From assembly GCF_001428065.1 (NCBI RefSeq), contig NZ_LMSE01000002.1, forward strand, positions 729,690 to 793,689: a stretch of DNA of 64,000 nt, given 5' to 3'. The translations under genes were made by a program, and so were the position numbers. The notes under the pieces are model-generated. The model did not search any database. It saw only the letters and a list, made by a program, of their open reading frames with translations, and had not been told where the DNA came from. Below are positions 29,164 to 36,742 of the stretch, piece after piece (position 1 is the stretch's first letter; the number at the start of each line of letters is the position of its first letter). Origin of the DNA: Nostocoides sp. Soil756. GTDB lineage: Bacteria > Actinomycetota > Actinomycetes > Actinomycetales > Dermatophilaceae.

Positions 29164-29167
<4 letters not shown>

Positions 29168-29877
29168 CCGCGGCCCTCACCACCGCCGTCACCGCCGACG
29201 CACCCCCCACCCGGAGCCTGCTCCAGGGGTCGGCCCTGCTCTGGGGCACCCAGTTCGCCTTCCTGAACCCCGCGATCGGGCTGCTCCTGGTCACCCTCTA
29301 CGACGCCACGCCGGCCCAGGTGGGGCCGGCGCTGGCGGCCTACAACGCCAGCGGCCTGGCTCCCGCTGGCGGTGCTGGCCCTGGTGGCGCTCGGCGGCCC
29401 GGCCGGCGCCGGGATCGGGCTGATCTTCGCCTACCAGCGCTACACCGGCGCGACCTCGTCCCAGGTCATGCGCACGCGGGCCGTGGTCTCGTTCGCGTGG
29501 GTGGGCGGCCCGCCGCTCACGGCCTTCCTGATGGGCTTCTTCGGCAGCCGCTCGATCCTGTGGGCGGTGGCGGGCATCGGGGTGTCGGCGATGCCGCTGT
29601 TCGTCACCCAGCGCCTCGGGCTCGGGGTCGAGTGGAGCGGGGTGGCCCTCGGCACCTGCGCCGCCCTCGAGATCCCGATCCTCATCGCGCTCGGCCGGCT
29701 CGTGGCCCGCTTCGGGCATGTCGGGGGTCGGGCTTGTCGAGCCTCGGCTACGCCGGCGTGTTCGCCGGGTGTGCGGGGCTGGTGGCCGCCGGGTTCGCGG
29801 TGCTGGTGGGGGCCCGGCTCGGTCCGCTCAGCCGGCAGCCGGCGCAGCCAGCAGGTGGGCGTCGCCGCGGACCGTGA
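29164..29877 (+). pseudogene. Decayed SetA-like MFS efflux transporter
   Basis: Three blocks of one MFS protein are found in two frames. Block 1 (from GTG 29164, overlapping the lepA stop, to about 29356) encodes ALLWGTQFAFLNPAIGLLL and ends at YNASG. Block 2 continues in the next frame from 29357 (WLPLAVLALVALGGPAG) to about 29725 (IALGRLVARFG). Block 3 returns to the first frame (SLGYAGVFAGCAGLVAAGF). Comparison with the usual layout of sugar-efflux MFS proteins implies two internal deletions: about 30-40 codons at the first junction and about 100 at the second. Total length is about 240 codons against roughly 400 for the family. It cannot encode a working transporter. The 3' end overlaps fbpC on the other strand. 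Confidence 0.8.
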
Positions 29878-30877
29878 CCGACACCTCGTCGCCCGCCACC
29901 GGCGGGGGCGCGCCGGTGATGCGAGCGCGCAGGACCGGCGCCCGGTCACCGTCCAGACGCAGCTCGACGAGCGCGTCGTGGCCGAAGTACTCGGTGCGCG
30001 TCACCACACCGTGGGCGATGCCGGAGGCCACCGGGCCCAGGACCAGCTGCTCGGGGCGCAGCACCACCTCGCACGGCCCGGACCCGGAAGCGCCGGGGGC
30101 CGCGAGCCGGCCGAGGGCGCACCGCACCACGCCGTCCTCGAGCACACCGGGCAGGAAGCACGCCTCGCCCAGCGACACCGCCGAGCGGCGGTCGGACGGG
30201 GCGGTGTAGACCTCCGGCGGCGCGCCCACCTGGACCAGGCCGCCGTCGTGCAGCACGGCCACCTGGTCGGCGAAGGACAGGGCCTCGGCGTGGTCGTGGG
30301 TGACCAGGACGACGGTGGCCCGCTCGTGGCGCAGGGCGGCGGCCACGGCATCGCGGGTGGCGACCCGCAGCTCGGGGTCCAGGGCCGAGAAGGGCTCGTC
30401 GAGCAGCACGATGCCCGGGCGACGGGCCAGGGAGCGGGCCAGCGCCACTCGCTGCTGCTGGCCGCCCGAGAGCTGGTCGGGGCGGCGCCCCGCGAGGTCG
30501 GCGGGCAGCCCCACGACCTCGAGCAGCTCGGCCACCCGGCCCCGCGCTCGGCGCTCGGCCCGTGGGAGGCCGTAGGAGATGTTCGCGGCGACGTCGAGGT
30601 GGGGGAAGAGGTTGCCCTCCTGCGCCACGTAGCCGAAGCCGCGTCGCTCGGGCGGCACCCAGGTGCCGGGGCCGGCCACGACCTCGTCACCGAGACGCAC
30701 CGTGCCGGTGTCGGGACGCATGAAGCCCGCGACCACCCGCAGCAGCGTCGTCTTGCCGCAGCCCGACGGACCGAGCACGGCCGTGGTGGTGCCCGAGGCG
30801 ACGGTGAGGTCGATGTCGTGCAGCACCGGCGTCCGGGGATGGGACGCGCTGATGCCCTCGAGCCGCAGGGTGGTCAT
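29828..30877 (-). CDS. fbpC: Fe(III) ABC transporter ATP-binding protein
   Basis: A 349-residue ABC ATPase of the FbpC/ferric-iron class. Walker A GPSGCGKT is at 36-43, signature LSGGQ at 136-140 and Walker B IVLLDEP near 157-163. The C-terminal third is a TOBE-like regulatory domain (PEQLVLGP onward). It overlaps the permease gene upstream by ATGA and completes a substrate-binding protein/permease/ATPase operon. Iron as substrate is inferred from the binding protein and from the iron box upstream of the operon. Confidence 0.88.
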
Positions 30878-32460
30878 GGGCGGGGCTCCTCGTGGCCGCC
30901 GCGCAGCAGCAGCCAGGTCAGGGGGGCGGACAGGACGACCATCGCGGCCGCGAACGGCGCTGCGGCGGCGTAGTCGAGGGAGGCGCTGGCGTCCCAGAAC
31001 GCCGTGGCCAGGGTACGGGTGCCGGTGGGCGCCAGCAGGAGGGTGGCGGTGAGCTCGGTGGTGACGGCGACGAAGACCAGCGCCGTCCCGGCGAGGGTGC
31101 CGCGCAGCATCAGCGGCGCCTGCACCCGGACGAAGGTGCGCACCGGTCCGTCGCCCAGGGCGCGCGCGGCGTCGGCCAGCTCGGGGCGGACGGTGGCGAT
31201 CGCGGCCCGGGTCGAGACCATCGCCAGGGGGATGAAGAGCACGACGTAGGCCACGACCAGGGCCGTGGTGGTCTGGTAGAGCGGCCGCGCGAAGCCGATG
31301 GTGAGCGTGATGAGCGCCAGCGCCACGACCACCCCGGGCAGCGACGCGGCGAGGTAGGTGACCCGCTCGAGCAGCAGCGCCACCCGCGAGCGGCTGCGCG
31401 CGACCAGCCAGGCGGCCGGCAGGGTGGCGGCGGTGGTGACCAGGGCGGCGACCAGGCCGAGCACGAGGGTGGAGCGCAGGGCCGGGCCCAGGGCCACCGG
31501 CTCGAGCGCCTGGTCGGCGCGGCCCAGCCACGTGCCGATGCTCCACAGCGGCACGCCCAGGGCGAGCACGGCCAGCGCGGCCAGTCCGAGCAGCGCGGCT
31601 GGGAGGGCGCGCCCCAGACTTGCCCGCGTCGGTCGCCGGGCCGCCCCCGAGCCCACGGCGACGTACCGCGTCCGTCCGCGGGCGAGGACCTCGAGGGTGA
31701 GCAGCAGGGTGGCCAGGCCGATGAGTACCACCGCCAGCACGCTGCCGGAGCGGCTGTCGAAGGCGACCTCGAACTGGTCGAGGATCGCCGTCGTGAAGGT
31801 GGGGAAGCGCAGCATCTCGAGGGCACCGTACTCGGCCAGGAGGTGGAGCAGCACCAGCAGGACGCCGCCGAGCAGGGCCGGGCGGACCTGCGCCAGCCCG
31901 ACCCGGGCGAAGGTGCGCCACGGCCCGTTCCCCAGCGCGCGCGAGGCCTCCTCGAGCCCGGGGTCGGTCGAGCGCAGCAGCGCGGCCACCGGCAGGAAGA
32001 CGAAGGGGAAGTAGGACAGCGTGGTGACGATGACCGCCCCGGCCAGACCCTCGAAGCCGGGGACCAGCGAGGACCAGGCGAAGCTGTTGACGAAGGCGGG
32101 CACGGCCAGCGGCGCCACGAAAGCCACCCGCCACAGCCCGGCCCAGGGCACCGCGGTGCGCTCGACCAGCCAGGCCGCCCCGACCCCGAGCACGGTCGCC
32201 AGCACGCCGGTGAGCGCGAGCAGCGAGAGCGTGTTGCGCATCAGCTCGCCGACCCGAGGGCGCCACACCAGCGAGAAGGCCTCGCCGGCACCGGCCTCCA
32301 GCGCCTTGGCCAGCACCACGACCAGCGGCAGGAGGCACAGCAGCGCCACCAGGACGGCGGCCACCTGCAGCGCGCGCGGCGGACGGGGCGTCCTCGAGGA
32401 CGCCGAGGACGGTGCCGGCCCGGGGCGGGTCGGCACCGTCGCGCTCGGCGTGGTGCTCAC
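30874..32460 (-). CDS. fbpB: Fe(III) ABC transporter permease (FbpB-like)
   Basis: A 528-residue fused permease with two homologous halves and about twelve transmembrane segments. Each half carries a binding-protein-dependent transport loop: EASRALGNGPWRTFARVGLAQVRPAL in the first and DAARALGDGPVRTFVRVQAPLMLRG in the second. This duplicated layout is typical of FbpB/SfuB ferric-iron permeases. The GTG start lies directly beside the stop of the binding-protein gene, with none or one base between; the stop overlaps fbpC. Confidence 0.9.
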   Translation of the reverse strand: MSTTPSATVPTRPGPAPSSASSRTPRPPRALQVAAVLVALLCLLPLVVVLAKALEAGAGEAFSLVWRPRVGELMRNTLSLLALTGVLATVLGVGAAWLVERTAVPWAGLWRVAFVAPLAVPAFVNSFAWSSLVPGFEGLAGAVIVTTLSYFPFVFLPVAALLRSTDPGLEEASRALGNGPWRTFARVGLAQVRPALLGGVLLVLLHLLAEYGALEMLRFPTFTTAILDQFEVAFDSRSGSVLAVVLIGLATLLLTLEVLARGRTRYVAVGSGAARRPTRASLGRALPAALLGLAALAVLALGVPLWSIGTWLGRADQALEPVALGPALRSTLVLGLVAALVTTAATLPAAWLVARSRSRVALLLERVTYLAASLPGVVVALALITLTIGFARPLYQTTTALVVAYVVLFIPLAMVSTRAAIATVRPELADAARALGDGPVRTFVRVQAPLMLRGTLAGTALVFVAVTTELTATLLLAPTGTRTLATAFWDASASLDYAAAAPFAAAMVVLSAPLTWLLLRGGHEEPRP

Positions 32461-33492
32461 CTAGAGCAGACCGGCCTTGGTCATCAGGTCGATGACCTTG
32501 GGCCCGTTGAGGGTGAACGGGTCGATCCGCGGTGCTTCGAGCGAGTCCAGCGGCGGCAGGGCGGGGTCGGAGGCAGCGCCCTTGCCGACGGCGTACTCCT
32601 TGACGTCGGTGGTGCGCAGCAGCTTCTGGCCCTGGGGGCCGGTGACGAACGCGAGGAACTTCTGGGCGTCGGCGGCGTGCTTGCTGCTCTTGAGGACCCC
32701 GCCCCCGCTGAGGCTGACGAAGGCTCCCGGGTCCTGGTTCTTGAAGTAGTGCAGCTTCGTGTTGCCGCTGCTGCTCTTCTGGAGAGCCTGGTCGCGGTAC
32801 CAGTAGTAGTGGTAGATGATGCCCATCGCCGACTGCCCGGCGTTCACGGCCTTCATCGTGGCGATGTTGTTCTGGTAGATCTTCGCGTTCGACTTCAGGG
32901 CCCGCAGCCAGGCCTCGGTCTTCTGCTCGCCCTCCTGCGCCAGCACGGCCGACACGATGGCCTGGAAGTCGGCCCCGCCGGCGGCCGCGCCCCACTGGCC
33001 CGCGTACTTGGGGTCGGCGAGGTCCATCAGCGAGGCCGGGAGGTCGGCCTCCTTGATCTTGCTCGGGTTGTAGACCAGCACGGTCGCGCGGGCGGCGATC
33101 CCGACCCAGTCCTTCGACGACGGGACGTAGGCGTCGCCGACCTGGGCCAGCGTCGCCGGGTCGACCGGCGCGAGCAGCCCCGCCTGCTCAACGGTCGTCA
33201 TCGCGGGGGAGTTCTCGGTGAGGAAGACGTCGGCGGGGGAGCCGGCGCCCTCCTCGACGATCTGCGCGCCCATCGAGGAGTCATTGCCGTAGCGGATCTG
33301 GACGTCGATGCCGGTCTCCTTCTGGAACTCCTCGCCCCAGGCCTGCGTGAGGTTCTTGTGCTGCGCGCTGTAGATCGTCAGCTTCGAGCCGTCGAGGTCG
33401 CCGGTGGCCTCCAGGCTGCCGTCTCCACAGGCCGAGAGCCCCAGGGTGGCGGCGGCCACCGCCGCGGCGATCAGGGTGGTGCGTCGTCTCAC
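32461..33492 (-). CDS. fbpA: Fe(III) ABC transporter substrate-binding lipoprotein
   Basis: A 343-residue secreted lipoprotein. The signal peptide (residues 1-21) ends in a LGLSAC lipobox with C22 for lipid attachment. The mature part is a family-1 binding protein (LTIYSAQHKNLTQAWGEEF). The segment IIYHYYWYRD has the adjacent tyrosines (Y229, Y230) that coordinate ferric iron in FbpA-type proteins. GGAG lies 7 nt before the GTG start. The upstream sequence has an AGGC-AA-GCCT-type half-matching iron box (33532-33547), and the better iron box at 33605 is 112 bp away, so iron repression is likely. Confidence 0.88.
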   Translation of the reverse strand: MRRRTTLIAAAVAAATLGLSACGDGSLEATGDLDGSKLTIYSAQHKNLTQAWGEEFQKETGIDVQIRYGNDSSMGAQIVEEGAGSPADVFLTENSPAMTTVEQAGLLAPVDPATLAQVGDAYVPSSKDWVGIAARATVLVYNPSKIKEADLPASLMDLADPKYAGQWGAAAGGADFQAIVSAVLAQEGEQKTEAWLRALKSNAKIYQNNIATMKAVNAGQSAMGIIYHYYWYRDQALQKSSSGNTKLHYFKNQDPGAFVSLSGGGVLKSSKHAADAQKFLAFVTGPQGQKLLRTTDVKEYAVGKGAASDPALPPLDSLEAPRIDPFTLNGPKVIDLMTKAGLL

Positions 33493-33531
33493 GAGGGTCT
33501 CCGGCTCCGTTCGGGGTCATCGGGTGAAGGG

Positions 33532-33547
33532 AAGGCTTGCCTAACTC
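33532..33547. promoter_or_regulatory. Weak iron-box-like repeat upstream of fbpA
   Basis: On the reverse strand this reads GTTAGGCAAGCCTTC, with AGGC/GCCT arms that match part of the IdeR/DtxR consensus (about 12 of 19 positions when extended). It lies 40-55 bp before the fbpA start, where a repressor would block the promoter. Confidence is limited because the match is partial. Confidence 0.45.
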
Positions 33548-33599: not shown

Positions 33600-33627
33600 T
33601 TGCATTAGGTGTGCCTAACCTTATTTA
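33600..33627 (+). promoter_or_regulatory. IdeR/DtxR-type iron box and promoter
   Basis: TTAGGTGTGCCTAACCTTA at 33605-33623 agrees with the IdeR/DtxR consensus at about 15 of 19 positions, including both half-sites. A candidate promoter surrounds it: TTGCAT (33600-33605) and TATTTA (33622-33627) with a 16-bp spacer. The transcription start would then fall at or just before the GTG at 33636. IdeR with Fe(II) would block this promoter, so the downstream gene should be expressed when iron is scarce. The box could also serve the divergent fbpABC operon. Confidence 0.8.
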
Positions 33628-33635
33628 CTGACGCG

Positions 33636-36353
33636 GTGACTACGTCGGTGGATGCCCCGCTCCGTGCCTGCGCCCTGCCCTGGGTGGGGCGCCTCGCCGA
33701 GCACGGTGACCGGGCCGCGCTGCACGCTCCCGAGGGGACCGTCACCCACGCCCAGCTGGCCGCGCGGGTCGCCGCGACGTGCGAGCGGCTGTCCGGGCCC
33801 CGCCGCCTCGTGCAGGTCGAGGGGTCGGGCACGGTCGCGGGCGTCGTCTCGCTCCTGGCCGCCCAGGCCGCCGGCCACGTGGTGCTGCTCGTCCCGCCCG
33901 GAGCCTCGGCGGCCGCGCTGCGCGGCGCCTACCGGCCCGACGTCGTGATCGGTGCCACCGGCGAGGTCGAGGTGCTGCGCACCGAGCCCGCGCACGAGCT
34001 CCATCCCGACCTCGCCCTGCTGCTGAGCACCAGCGGCTCCACCGGCTCGCCCCGGCTGGTGCGGCTCTCGGCCGCCAACCTGGTCGCCAACGCCGCGCAG
34101 ATCACCGAGGCCCTCGGGGTGCGCCCCGACGACTGCGCCGCGCTCACCCTGCCGCTGACCTACTGCTACGGGCTCTCGGTGCTGACGACCCACCTGGCCG
34201 CCGGTGCCTCACTGCTGCTCACCGACACCTCGGTGGTCGACGAGTGTTTCTGGCGCGCCGCAGCCGACGCCGGGGTGACCACGCTGCCCGGGGTGCCGCA
34301 CACCTTCGAGCTGCTCGAGCGCAGCGGGTTCGCCGAGCGCGACCTGCCCCGGCTGCGGACCCTCACCCAGGCCGGCGGCCGGATGGACCCCGAGCGGGTG
34401 CGCCGCTTTGCCGAGCTGGGCCGGCGGCGCGGCTTCGACCTCGTGGTGATGTACGGCCAGTGCGAGGCCACGGCGCGGATGACCGTGCTGCCGCCCGCGC
34501 TGGCCGCGTCCCATCCCGACACCGTGGGCCGCCCGGTGCCGGGCGCCAGCATCGACCTCGACGACGGCGAGATCGTCTTCCGCGGGCCCAACGTCATGCT
34601 CGGCTACGCGCACGCCCCCGCCGACCTCGCGCTGGGGCGCACCGTCGACATGCTGCGCACCGGCGACCTGGGCGAGCGCACCCCCGAGGGGCTGCTGCGG
34701 GTCGTCGGGCGCCGGGCGCGGTTCGTCAAGGTGCTCGGCCACCGGGTCGACCTGGACTGCCTCGAGCAGCGGCTGCGCGACGGCGGGATTGACGCGCGCT
34801 GCGCCGGTCGCGACGGCCTCGTGGTCGTGGGGGCGCGCGGGGTGTGCGGCGTCGCGGAGGCCGAGCGGGTGCGCCGCACGGCCTCGGTGCGCTCGGGCGT
34901 GCCGCGCGACGCCGTGACGGTGGTGCCGGTCACCGAGCTGCCGCTGCTCGAGAACGGCAAGCCCGACGCCGCGGCGCTGCTCCGCCTGGCCGAGCCGGCC
35001 GACGGCGGCCGCTCCCGGGGCGACACCGGCGGGGTCGGCGCGCTCTACCGGGACCTCCTCGGTGGCCCGGTGGCTCCGGACGCTTCCTTCGTCAGCCTCG
35101 GCGGTGACTCGCTGTCGTACGTGGAGGTCTCCATCCGGCTGGAGGCGCTCCTCGGCCGGCTCCCGGCCGGGTGGCACCGGATGCCGGTGACCGAGCTCGA
35201 GGCGATCCGGGTGCAGGAGGCGGTCGAGACCTCGCCCGGGGACAGCCGCCGCGCTCGGCCCCCGCGCCGCTGGGTGACTCTCGAGACCAGCATCTGGCTG
35301 CGAGCGCTGGCCATCGTGCTCGTCGTCGGCACCCACGCCGACCTGTTCACCCTGCAGGGCACCGCCAACGCCCTCCTGGTGCTGGCGGGCTACCAGCTGG
35401 CGCGCTTCCAGCTGGCCGGGCTCGACCCCGGCGGGCGCTCCCGGCGGGCGCTCGGGGCCGCGGTGCGGGTCGCGGTGCCGAGCGTGGCCGTCATCGCGGT
35501 CGCCTACCTCGTCGGCGGCTACTACGAGCCACGCAACCTCTTGCTGGCCAACTGGGTGCTGGGCGAGGCGCGGCTGGGGCCCCCCTGGCGGTTCTGGTTC
35601 GTCGAGGCCCTGGTCTTCGCCCTGGTCGTCGTGGCCCTCCTGGTGCGGACCCGGGTGGTCGCCCGGCTCGACGCGCGCTTCCCGTTCGCCCTGCCGCTGG
35701 CGCTGTGCGTGGCCGCGTTCGTCGTCTTCCGCATCCCGTGGCTCCCGCTGCCGGTGCCGCGGATGCAGGGCTCGGCCCTGGTCGTCCTGCACCTGTTCCT
35801 GCTCGGCTGGGCGCTGGCCCGCGCGCGGGGCGCCCGGCAGCGACTGGTGGGCACCGCGGTCGTGCTGGTCATGGTCGGCACCTTCTCGGGCAACCACCTG
35901 CGCGACGGGCTGACCATCGCCGTCGTCCTCGCGCTGCTATGGCTGCCGACGTCGCGGGTCCCCGCGATGGTGGTGCCGGTGGTGCGGGTCCTGGCGGCCG
36001 CCTCGCTGTACGTCTACGTCATCCACTGGCAGGCGCTCGAGCTGCTGTGGGGGCACCCGGCCGCGGCCTTCGCCGGCTCGCTCGCCCTCGGCGTCGCCTA
36101 CTGGTGGGTGTGGACCCGCTGGGTCACCCGCGCCGCCCGAGCGGCGACCGCCCGGTGGCGGGCTCAGAGGGGGACCGAGGACTCCTCGACGCGCGGGCCA
36201 CGCAGAGCGCCGTCGGCCCAGTCGGCCGGGCGGTCGGCGAGGTCGAGCAGCGCGAGCACGTCGGCGGGCCAGATCTCGTCGGTGGCCGCGGCGAGCTCGG
36301 CGCGCGCCCACCAGCGGGTCTCGGCGATGCAGAGCCGCTCCTCCTCGGTGTAG
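33636..36353 (+). CDS. Adenylation-carrier-acyltransferase membrane fusion protein
   Basis: A 905-residue three-part protein. Residues ~1-455 are an AMP-forming adenylation domain: STSGSTGSPR (from 131), MYGQCEAT (near 272), RTGDLG (341-346) and ENGKPD with the catalytic lysine K442. Residues ~465-535 are a carrier domain with GGDSLS; S492 would carry phosphopantetheine. Residues ~545-840 form a multi-pass membrane domain of the acyltransferase-3 type (WLRALAIVLVVGTHADLF, LVLAGYQLARF). The likely chemistry is activation of a carboxylic acid, loading on the carrier and transfer to a membrane or extracellular acceptor. Substrate and acceptor are unknown. The last ~62 residues are encoded opposite the NUDIX gene and may be meaningless read-through. 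The GTG lies beside an iron box and may be leaderless; GTG 33648 is an alternative. Confidence 0.75.
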   Translation: MTTSVDAPLRACALPWVGRLAEHGDRAALHAPEGTVTHAQLAARVAATCERLSGPRRLVQVEGSGTVAGVVSLLAAQAAGHVVLLVPPGASAAALRGAYRPDVVIGATGEVEVLRTEPAHELHPDLALLLSTSGSTGSPRLVRLSAANLVANAAQITEALGVRPDDCAALTLPLTYCYGLSVLTTHLAAGASLLLTDTSVVDECFWRAAADAGVTTLPGVPHTFELLERSGFAERDLPRLRTLTQAGGRMDPERVRRFAELGRRRGFDLVVMYGQCEATARMTVLPPALAASHPDTVGRPVPGASIDLDDGEIVFRGPNVMLGYAHAPADLALGRTVDMLRTGDLGERTPEGLLRVVGRRARFVKVLGHRVDLDCLEQRLRDGGIDARCAGRDGLVVVGARGVCGVAEAERVRRTASVRSGVPRDAVTVVPVTELPLLENGKPDAAALLRLAEPADGGRSRGDTGGVGALYRDLLGGPVAPDASFVSLGGDSLSYVEVSIRLEALLGRLPAGWHRMPVTELEAIRVQEAVETSPGDSRRARPPRRWVTLETSIWLRALAIVLVVGTHADLFTLQGTANALLVLAGYQLARFQLAGLDPGGRSRRALGAAVRVAVPSVAVIAVAYLVGGYYEPRNLLLANWVLGEARLGPPWRFWFVEALVFALVVVALLVRTRVVARLDARFPFALPLALCVAAFVVFRIPWLPLPVPRMQGSALVVLHLFLLGWALARARGARQRLVGTAVVLVMVGTFSGNHLRDGLTIAVVLALLWLPTSRVPAMVVPVVRVLAAASLYVYVIHWQALELLWGHPAAAFAGSLALGVAYWWVWTRWVTRAARAATARWRAQRGTEDSSTRGPRRAPSAQSAGRSARSSSASTSAGQISSVAAASSARAHQRVSAMQSRSSSV

Positions 36354-36736
36354 CCCGAGCTGTCCACCTCGAAGGCCGGCAGCCGGACCGCGAAGAACAC
36401 CTCGGTCTGGTCGACGACCTTGTCGCTGTAGCCGTGCACCACCTGTCGCTCCAGCAGCGGGCCGCGCACCTGCGCGCGCTCGACGTGCTGCCCGGTCTCC
36501 TCCGCGAGCTCGCGCACCACGGCGTCGAGGTCGTCCTCGCCGGCATCCACGCCACCCCCGGGGGTGTCCCACCAGTGCGCCACCGGGTCGAGCCCGAGGT
36601 CGGAGTCGAGGAAGAGCAGCAGACGGTCGTCCTCGTCGAGCACCAGGACCCGGACGGCGCGGCGGGCGAACCGCTGACGGTCCTCGGGGGCGGGCACGAC
36701 GAAGCCCGGCTGCCCGGGCAGGGGAGGGGTGGCCAT
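36164..36736 (-). CDS. NUDIX hydrolase
   Basis: A 190-residue NUDIX protein. The box G-x5-E-x7-REL-x-EE-x-G is complete (GGVDAGE...RELAEETGQ, about residues 62-84). Such enzymes hydrolyse nucleoside diphosphates linked to other groups; the substrate is not evident. TAGCGT (reverse strand, 36743-36748) ends 6 nt before the ATG at 36736, so this is preferred to the GTG at 36742. Its -10 overlaps that of the divergent amidohydrolase gene. The 3' end overlaps the fusion gene by 190 bp. Confidence 0.85.
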   Translation of the reverse strand: MATPPLPGQPGFVVPAPEDRQRFARRAVRVLVLDEDDRLLLFLDSDLGLDPVAHWWDTPGGGVDAGEDDLDAVVRELAEETGQHVERAQVRGPLLERQVVHGYSDKVVDQTEVFFAVRLPAFEVDSSGYTEEERLCIAETRWWARAELAAATDEIWPADVLALLDLADRPADWADGALRGPRVEESSVPL

Positions 36737-36742
36737 GTCCAC

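Follow-up and report, generated by a model that had tools for sequence, protein, structure and literature searches.

An adenylation domain, a phosphopantetheine carrier domain and an AT3/TmAT membrane acyltransferase domain are joined in one chain, the A-T-AT3 fusion protein, in the window (the whole stretch of 64,000 nucleotides that was analysed). This protein is very probably an iron-regulated enzyme of acyl activation and transfer that is functionally tied to the FbpABC importer. The features of the fusion gene and of the importer genes are detailed in Table 1.

Table 1. Features of the fusion gene, its upstream region and the adjacent importer genes, with positions in the window.
Feature	Position	Strand	Details
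IdeR/DtxR-type iron box TTAGGTGTGCCTAACCTTA	33605..33623	.	16/19, between -35 and -10 of the fusion gene
Second, weaker iron box	33526..33544	.	13/19, fbpA side
Putative promoter	33600..33629	+	TTGCAT (33600-33605), 18 bases, TTTACT (33624-33629)
A-T-AT3 fusion protein	33636..36353	+	905 aa, GTG start, stop 36353
Conserved part of the fusion	to about 36170		residues 10-845
AMP-forming adenylation domain	33678..34985	+	residues ~15-450
Adenylation pocket			C177 Y178 S181 H222 T244 Q245 A246 M272 A280 R281; catalytic K442
Phosphopantetheine carrier domain	35031..35228	+	residues ~466-531; attachment Ser492, codon 35109-35111
AT3/TmAT membrane acyltransferase domain	35256..36170	+	10 helices
AT3 residues			R556 (35301-35303)-X10-H567 (35334-35336); S790xxxY794
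fbpA	32461..33492	-	Fe(III)-binding lipoprotein (SfuA/HitA type), divergent partner
fbpB	30874..32460	-	fused two-half permease
fbpC	29828..30877	-	ATPase, 349 aa, ATG at 30877

Fusion gene and domain organization

The source genome has a size of 3.47 Mb; Phycicoccus, Pedococcus and Intrasporangium rank as its nearest named relatives. The reading frame of the fusion gene is open across 33609-36353. GTG 33636 is most likely the true start, because the iron box, a -10-like sequence and this codon lie at near-equal spacing in eight related loci. At the other end of the gene, the codons for residues 846-905 lie on the strand opposite to a convergent NUDIX gene (36164-36742), with the two genes overlapping at 36164-36353, about 190 bases; the overlapping C-terminal tail is common to a 91%-identical congener and absent from the other homologues checked.

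The original prediction had read an adenylation domain, a carrier domain (S492) and an AT3 membrane domain in a single ORF, and the Pfam searches agree. AMP-binding was detected in the window protein (E=4e-38) and in 56 of 57 homologues. PP-binding, with 20.3 bits just under its cut-off of 20.8 in the window protein alone, was present in 54/57 homologues (best 1.8e-11), and Acyl_transf_3, with 24 bits under its 31-bit cut-off in the window protein alone, in 44/57 (best 3e-15). As the sub-threshold domains recur across the 57 homologues, all three domains are real. The structure model of the whole protein had a mean pLDDT of 90. The prediction had named no characterised protein of this order, and none with the A-T-AT3 architecture was found in the open-access literature, nor were biochemical or genetic data on any member.

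The catalytic motifs of the adenylation domain (P-loop GSTG, Asp344/Arg359 and Lys442) are present. Its pocket residues C177, Y178, S181, Y/H222, T244, A246, M272, A280 and R281 are nearly invariant among the 57 homologues and correspond, in order, to PheA 235, 236, 239, 278, 299, 301, 322, 330 and 331, a correspondence assigned manually with the alignment and the established A-domain motifs as guides. NRPS A domains that activate amino acids bind the amino group through an Asp at pocket position 235. This Asp is absent, which argues against an amino-acid substrate; the equivalent residue is Cys177 in 54/57 homologues and Ser in rhizobia. Judged from the pocket, the activated substrate is probably a small carboxylic acid and not an amino acid. 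It is probably also a common metabolite drawn from primary metabolism, since no biosynthetic gene recurs beside the fusion. Arg281 was set aside as proof of a dicarboxylate, as an Arg is also found in VinN and may be structural.

Amino-acid specificity, whether NRPS-like or Dlt-like, was rejected on account of this Cys. A Dlt-like aminoacylation, by which one chain would attach D-Ala, or some other amino acid, to a wall polymer, shares with the fusion the logical order of activation, carrier and membrane transfer, and DltA-type chains were among the weaker sequence matches, but with the amino-group Asp replaced and a membrane domain of the AT3/TmAT and not the MBOAT type it is very improbable.

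The carrier serine S492, within the motif GGDSL, is kept in 56/57 homologues, and the carrier-domain helix is predicted to begin at this residue in the structure model. The source genome has one phosphopantetheinyl transferase gene.

A separate model of the membrane domain shows ten helices (pLDDT 90). Human HGSNAT was its only confident fold match in the PDB (probability 1.00, E=0.024, TM 0.42), and the AT3 part had no PDB match when searched by sequence. HGSNAT is a transmembrane acetyltransferase of solved structure and belongs to the TmAT superfamily, which includes AT3 (PMC12423673). R-X10-H is conserved in TMH1 (R556 in 55/55, H567 in 56/56) and SxxxY in TMH9 of the Actinobacteria (S790 in 56/56, Y794 in 55/56); rhizobial homologues retain the Tyr of TMH9, their Ser being variable. 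G585 and G724 are invariant or nearly so. The Pfam matches across homologues, the fold match and the conserved motifs relate the membrane part to AT3, as had been proposed.

Neither the Asp of DxxR nor the Phe of FxxxxG is conserved in the AT3 domain of the family. RxxR, at the cytosolic end of TMH3, was not found in the fusion family, where R611 occurs in 39/57 homologues and position 608 appears not to be Arg among the residues listed, and it is likewise missing from the rhizobial homologues. Conservation in TmAT proteins is strongest among the residues that line the acyl-CoA site, chiefly towards its cytosolic end, and the DxxR Asp, the FxxxxG Phe and RxxR sit at this CoA-binding end (PMC12423673). 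Loss of the motifs of the CoA end, together with retention of the catalytic end, therefore fits a donor arriving on a carrier arm. Such a donor would be new, as published work on AT3 indicates acyl-CoA donors (PMC9558356).

Iron box and promoter

An IdeR/DtxR-type box had been predicted at about 15/19, 13 bp ahead of the gene. The box is present, with a score slightly higher (16/19) and a spacing of 12 bases to GTG 33636. It is the sole match with three or fewer mismatches in the window, 100 shuffles giving none; genome-wide, no other site lies within two mismatches of a degenerate consensus, and the reversed-pattern control also gave one. A box arising by chance was ruled out by the shuffles and by its recurrence across the surveyed loci. 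One gene for a DtxR-type repressor was found in the source genome. The promoter elements were read by eye and aligned in eight loci, and their layout with respect to the GTG codon predicts a leaderless transcript.

The box at 33526-33544, on which the original prediction was silent, has the second best score in the window, and a comparable second site was found in several of the loci of the closest relatives.

In the surveyed loci, the best box 5' of the first gene mostly scored 13-16, where the mean expected by chance is about 10. In most loci its placement follows the gene order: between the genes in divergent loci, before the fusion in fusion-first loci, and before fbpA but absent ahead of the fusion in fbpABC-first loci (Mycobacterium, Nocardioides, Lentzea and Amycolatopsis). 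No iron box was seen in a few loci of the survey (Nocardia, Actinomycetospora).

Linkage to the FbpABC importer

FbpA matched SfuA, YfuA and HitA, ferric-binding proteins of solved structure, at 271-391 bits, which confirms the divergent neighbour as the predicted Fe(III) ABC importer. An fbpA gene was found nearby in 48 of 62 loci, mostly adjacent, and FbpA, FbpB and the ATPase region are the only widely recurring neighbours in these loci. Most of the surveyed homologues thus combine iron boxes with fbp linkage. Among 188 genomes of the family of the window, 67 have the fusion and 75 have FbpA; the two occur together in 53 genomes (odds ratio 17, p=2e-16, an optimistic value because the genomes are related); the fusion is present in 49/52 genomes of this family with a close FbpA, several of them with the two on different contigs. 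Three gene orders were distinguished (divergent, fusion-first and fusion-last), and mapping the layouts onto a tree of 59 proteins required at least 11 changes. The pair of fusion and fbpABC is also carried on plasmids of Rhodococcus and Mycolicibacterium.

An alternative is that a lipid or wall polymer is decorated at low iron, altering permeability or protecting the envelope, with no binding of iron by the product and with the link to fbpABC due to shared regulation. AT3 proteins mostly acylate surface glycans (PMC9558356), solitary iron-boxed copies of the fusion exist, and the rhizobial copies do not lie beside fbp genes. Adjacency to FbpABC, however, outlasts many changes of layout, and the fusion and a close FbpA co-occur even when unlinked, so a shared task fits better than shared regulation alone, and such envelope remodelling is considered unlikely.

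Solitary copies of the fusion were found in some actinobacterial loci, for example on an Arthrobacter plasmid. In two Actinomycetospora loci (L071, 7135-7968; L078, 7189-8004) a gene for a membrane protein (DUF347 in L071) precedes the fusion and overlaps with it, and no iron box or fbp genes were found nearby. The plasmid units of fusion and fbpABC (L119, L128) lie beside a cadmium resistance transporter, a P-type ATPase, an ArsR regulator and lspA. In the window, the gap between a lepA-like GTPase gene and fbpC (29164-29880) holds fragments in two frames resembling a major-facilitator transporter, possibly a decayed gene; the Pfam search of both fragments gave no family.

Siderophore background

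NRPS, condensation and siderophore-synthesis genes had been described as lacking near the fusion. For condensation domains and IucA/C synthetases this holds genome-wide, as neither was found in the source genome, so that the two main classes of siderophore synthetase have no recognised representative there. One Peripla_BP_2 protein is encoded. Across the 188 family genomes the fusion showed no association with NIS siderophore genes (IucA/C; 10/67 vs 18/121, p=1).

These data bear on the possibility that the fusion is a minimal siderophore synthase, its AT3 domain acylating a small soluble amine or alcohol to give a diffusible chelator that is imported by FbpABC, with no transfer to the envelope. 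Iron control, the fbp partner and the lack of another synthetase of the two classes tested are in accordance with it, as is the modification of antibiotics by some AT3 proteins (PMC7448272). In the surveyed loci, however, neither exporter nor precursor genes recur. The classical partners in Fe(III) binding by Fbp systems are small anions, not large siderophores, which also speaks against this possibility, and it is regarded as rather improbable.

Distribution and regulation in rhizobia

In a sample covering the Actinomycetes, homologues were found in 71/395 genomes (about 18%), belonging to 29/138 genera, a few of these matches spanning the adenylation part only. A local oddity or chance fusion was ruled out by the occurrence in 67/188 genomes of the family and 71/395 of the class.

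The same three-domain protein, of 841-885 aa, is present in Alphaproteobacteria, mainly Rhizobium and Sinorhizobium. The alphaproteobacterial loci read have neither an IdeR box nor fbp neighbours. A TGA-N9-TCA RirA operator, following the IRO definition (PMC6386902), was found within 120 bp upstream, one each, in 8/8 Rhizobiales-type loci, which represent about four independent groups; TGA/TCA at spacers 5-8 and 10-14 occurred in 0/8. The Sinorhizobium meliloti homologue appears to be SMc00592, an assignment by synteny (gene order, with ndk as SMc00595). SMc00592 is listed in an array study as a hypothetical transmembrane protein with an M-value pattern like those of hmuV, hmuT, exbD and SMb21432, and follows the induction of the hmu/fhu/exb iron-uptake genes (PMC2848241, Table 2).

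Homologues of Leisingera and Rhodobacter (L124, L132, L127) are without the TGA-N9-TCA operator; the Leisingera pair has a different conserved stretch, TTGACAAAATTAGTAAATTAAATTA, ahead of the start. Two records (L087/L121) are probably mislabelled: a Rhodococcus MAG placed under Cyanobacteriota in the taxonomy of the tree tool, and an 'UNVERIFIED_ORG' Roseateles plasmid with a locus closely like that of Shinella.

Proposed mechanism

We lean towards a single-chain enzyme of acyl loading and transfer, induced by iron starvation and acting together with the Fe(III) importer FbpABC. As long as iron is available, IdeR/DtxR bound to the box between -35 and -10 would block transcription, and at low iron the enzyme would be made. 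The adenylation domain would activate one small acid and load it on the phosphopantetheine arm of Ser492, which would hand the thioester directly into the ten-helix AT3/TmAT domain. R556/H567 and Y794 would then pass the acyl group through the membrane to an acceptor at the outer face, which may be a lipid, a wall glycan or a small exported molecule, and the acylated product may help to hold or present Fe(III) to FbpA. Moderate confidence is placed in the crossing of the membrane by an acyl group coming from the carrier; for the product itself helping to bind Fe(III), the chances appear close to balanced, or slightly lower. The original prediction of a self-contained low-iron machine, in which an acid is activated and transferred to an acceptor lying within or outside the membrane, gains support from the AT3 identity, the boxes and the fbp linkage. 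The published S. meliloti array data and the conserved operators bear indirectly on the predicted response of expression to iron.

In its broadest form the proposal is tentative: an iron route without a classical siderophore synthetase or transferrin piracy, in which a carrier-fed transmembrane acyltransferase could make an iron-holding product, placed on the surface or exported, for FbpABC. The route would be widespread in Actinobacteria and, under a different regulator, in rhizobia, and its enzyme would be the first AT3/TmAT protein with a carrier-borne donor. Many importers of the Fbp type sit in bacteria without an evident dedicated source of chelated Fe(III), and a conserved enzyme under an iron switch that accompanies the importer, plasmids included, is a concrete and testable candidate for this missing step. 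If the carrier-fed mechanism is true, the known range of AT3/TmAT proteins widens. The annotated plasmid homologues are named almost only 'AMP-binding protein', and owing to these near-uniform labels the family is invisible in current annotation.

Comparison with known systems

Stand-alone AMP ligases of Firmicutes and Deinococcus have an adenylation domain 33-43% identical to that of the fusion and nearly the same pocket, but their carrier is separate, an AT3 domain is lacking, no association with iron was seen and the gene context differs. These ligases (L097, 7989-9407; L112, 7989-9419; L125, 5944-7353) cluster with ACP, short-chain dehydrogenases and LuxE-/LuxC-like genes, and in Firmicutes additionally with transketolase halves. 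As a pointer to the acid, the Firmicutes context failed to identify it.

With the A-T loading modules and the VinN-, MenE- and oxalate-CoA-ligase-like domains, the fusion shares the AMP-forming core, the catalytic Lys and a carrier fused behind; it differs in its single near-invariant pocket without Asp235, and in that no condensation, thioesterase or reductase domain follows the carrier. In Dlt D-alanylation, activation, carrier and membrane transfer are the tasks of DltA, DltC and DltB, respectively. The fusion, in contrast, is one chain, with an AT3 and not an MBOAT domain, iron control and a pocket not of the amino-acid type. The neighbouring importer is a clear member of the FbpABC/SfuABC/HitABC Fe(III) importers; to our knowledge, no dedicated acyl-transfer enzyme stands alongside the known systems.

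AT3/TmAT proteins (OafB, OatA, HGSNAT) resemble the membrane domain in the 10-helix fold, R-X10-H, the SxxxY of TMH9 and the conserved Gly of helix 6. The fusion differs from them in having its own activating and carrier domains in front and in lacking the DxxR Asp, the FxxxxG Phe and RxxR. The AT3 papers covered by the search describe acyl-CoA donors and AT3-only, SGNH-, NRF- and racemase-fused architectures, none of them with A-T (PMC9558356, PMC7448272, PMC12423673). Each domain of the fusion is thus of a known kind, and what is new is their combination, regulation and partnership.
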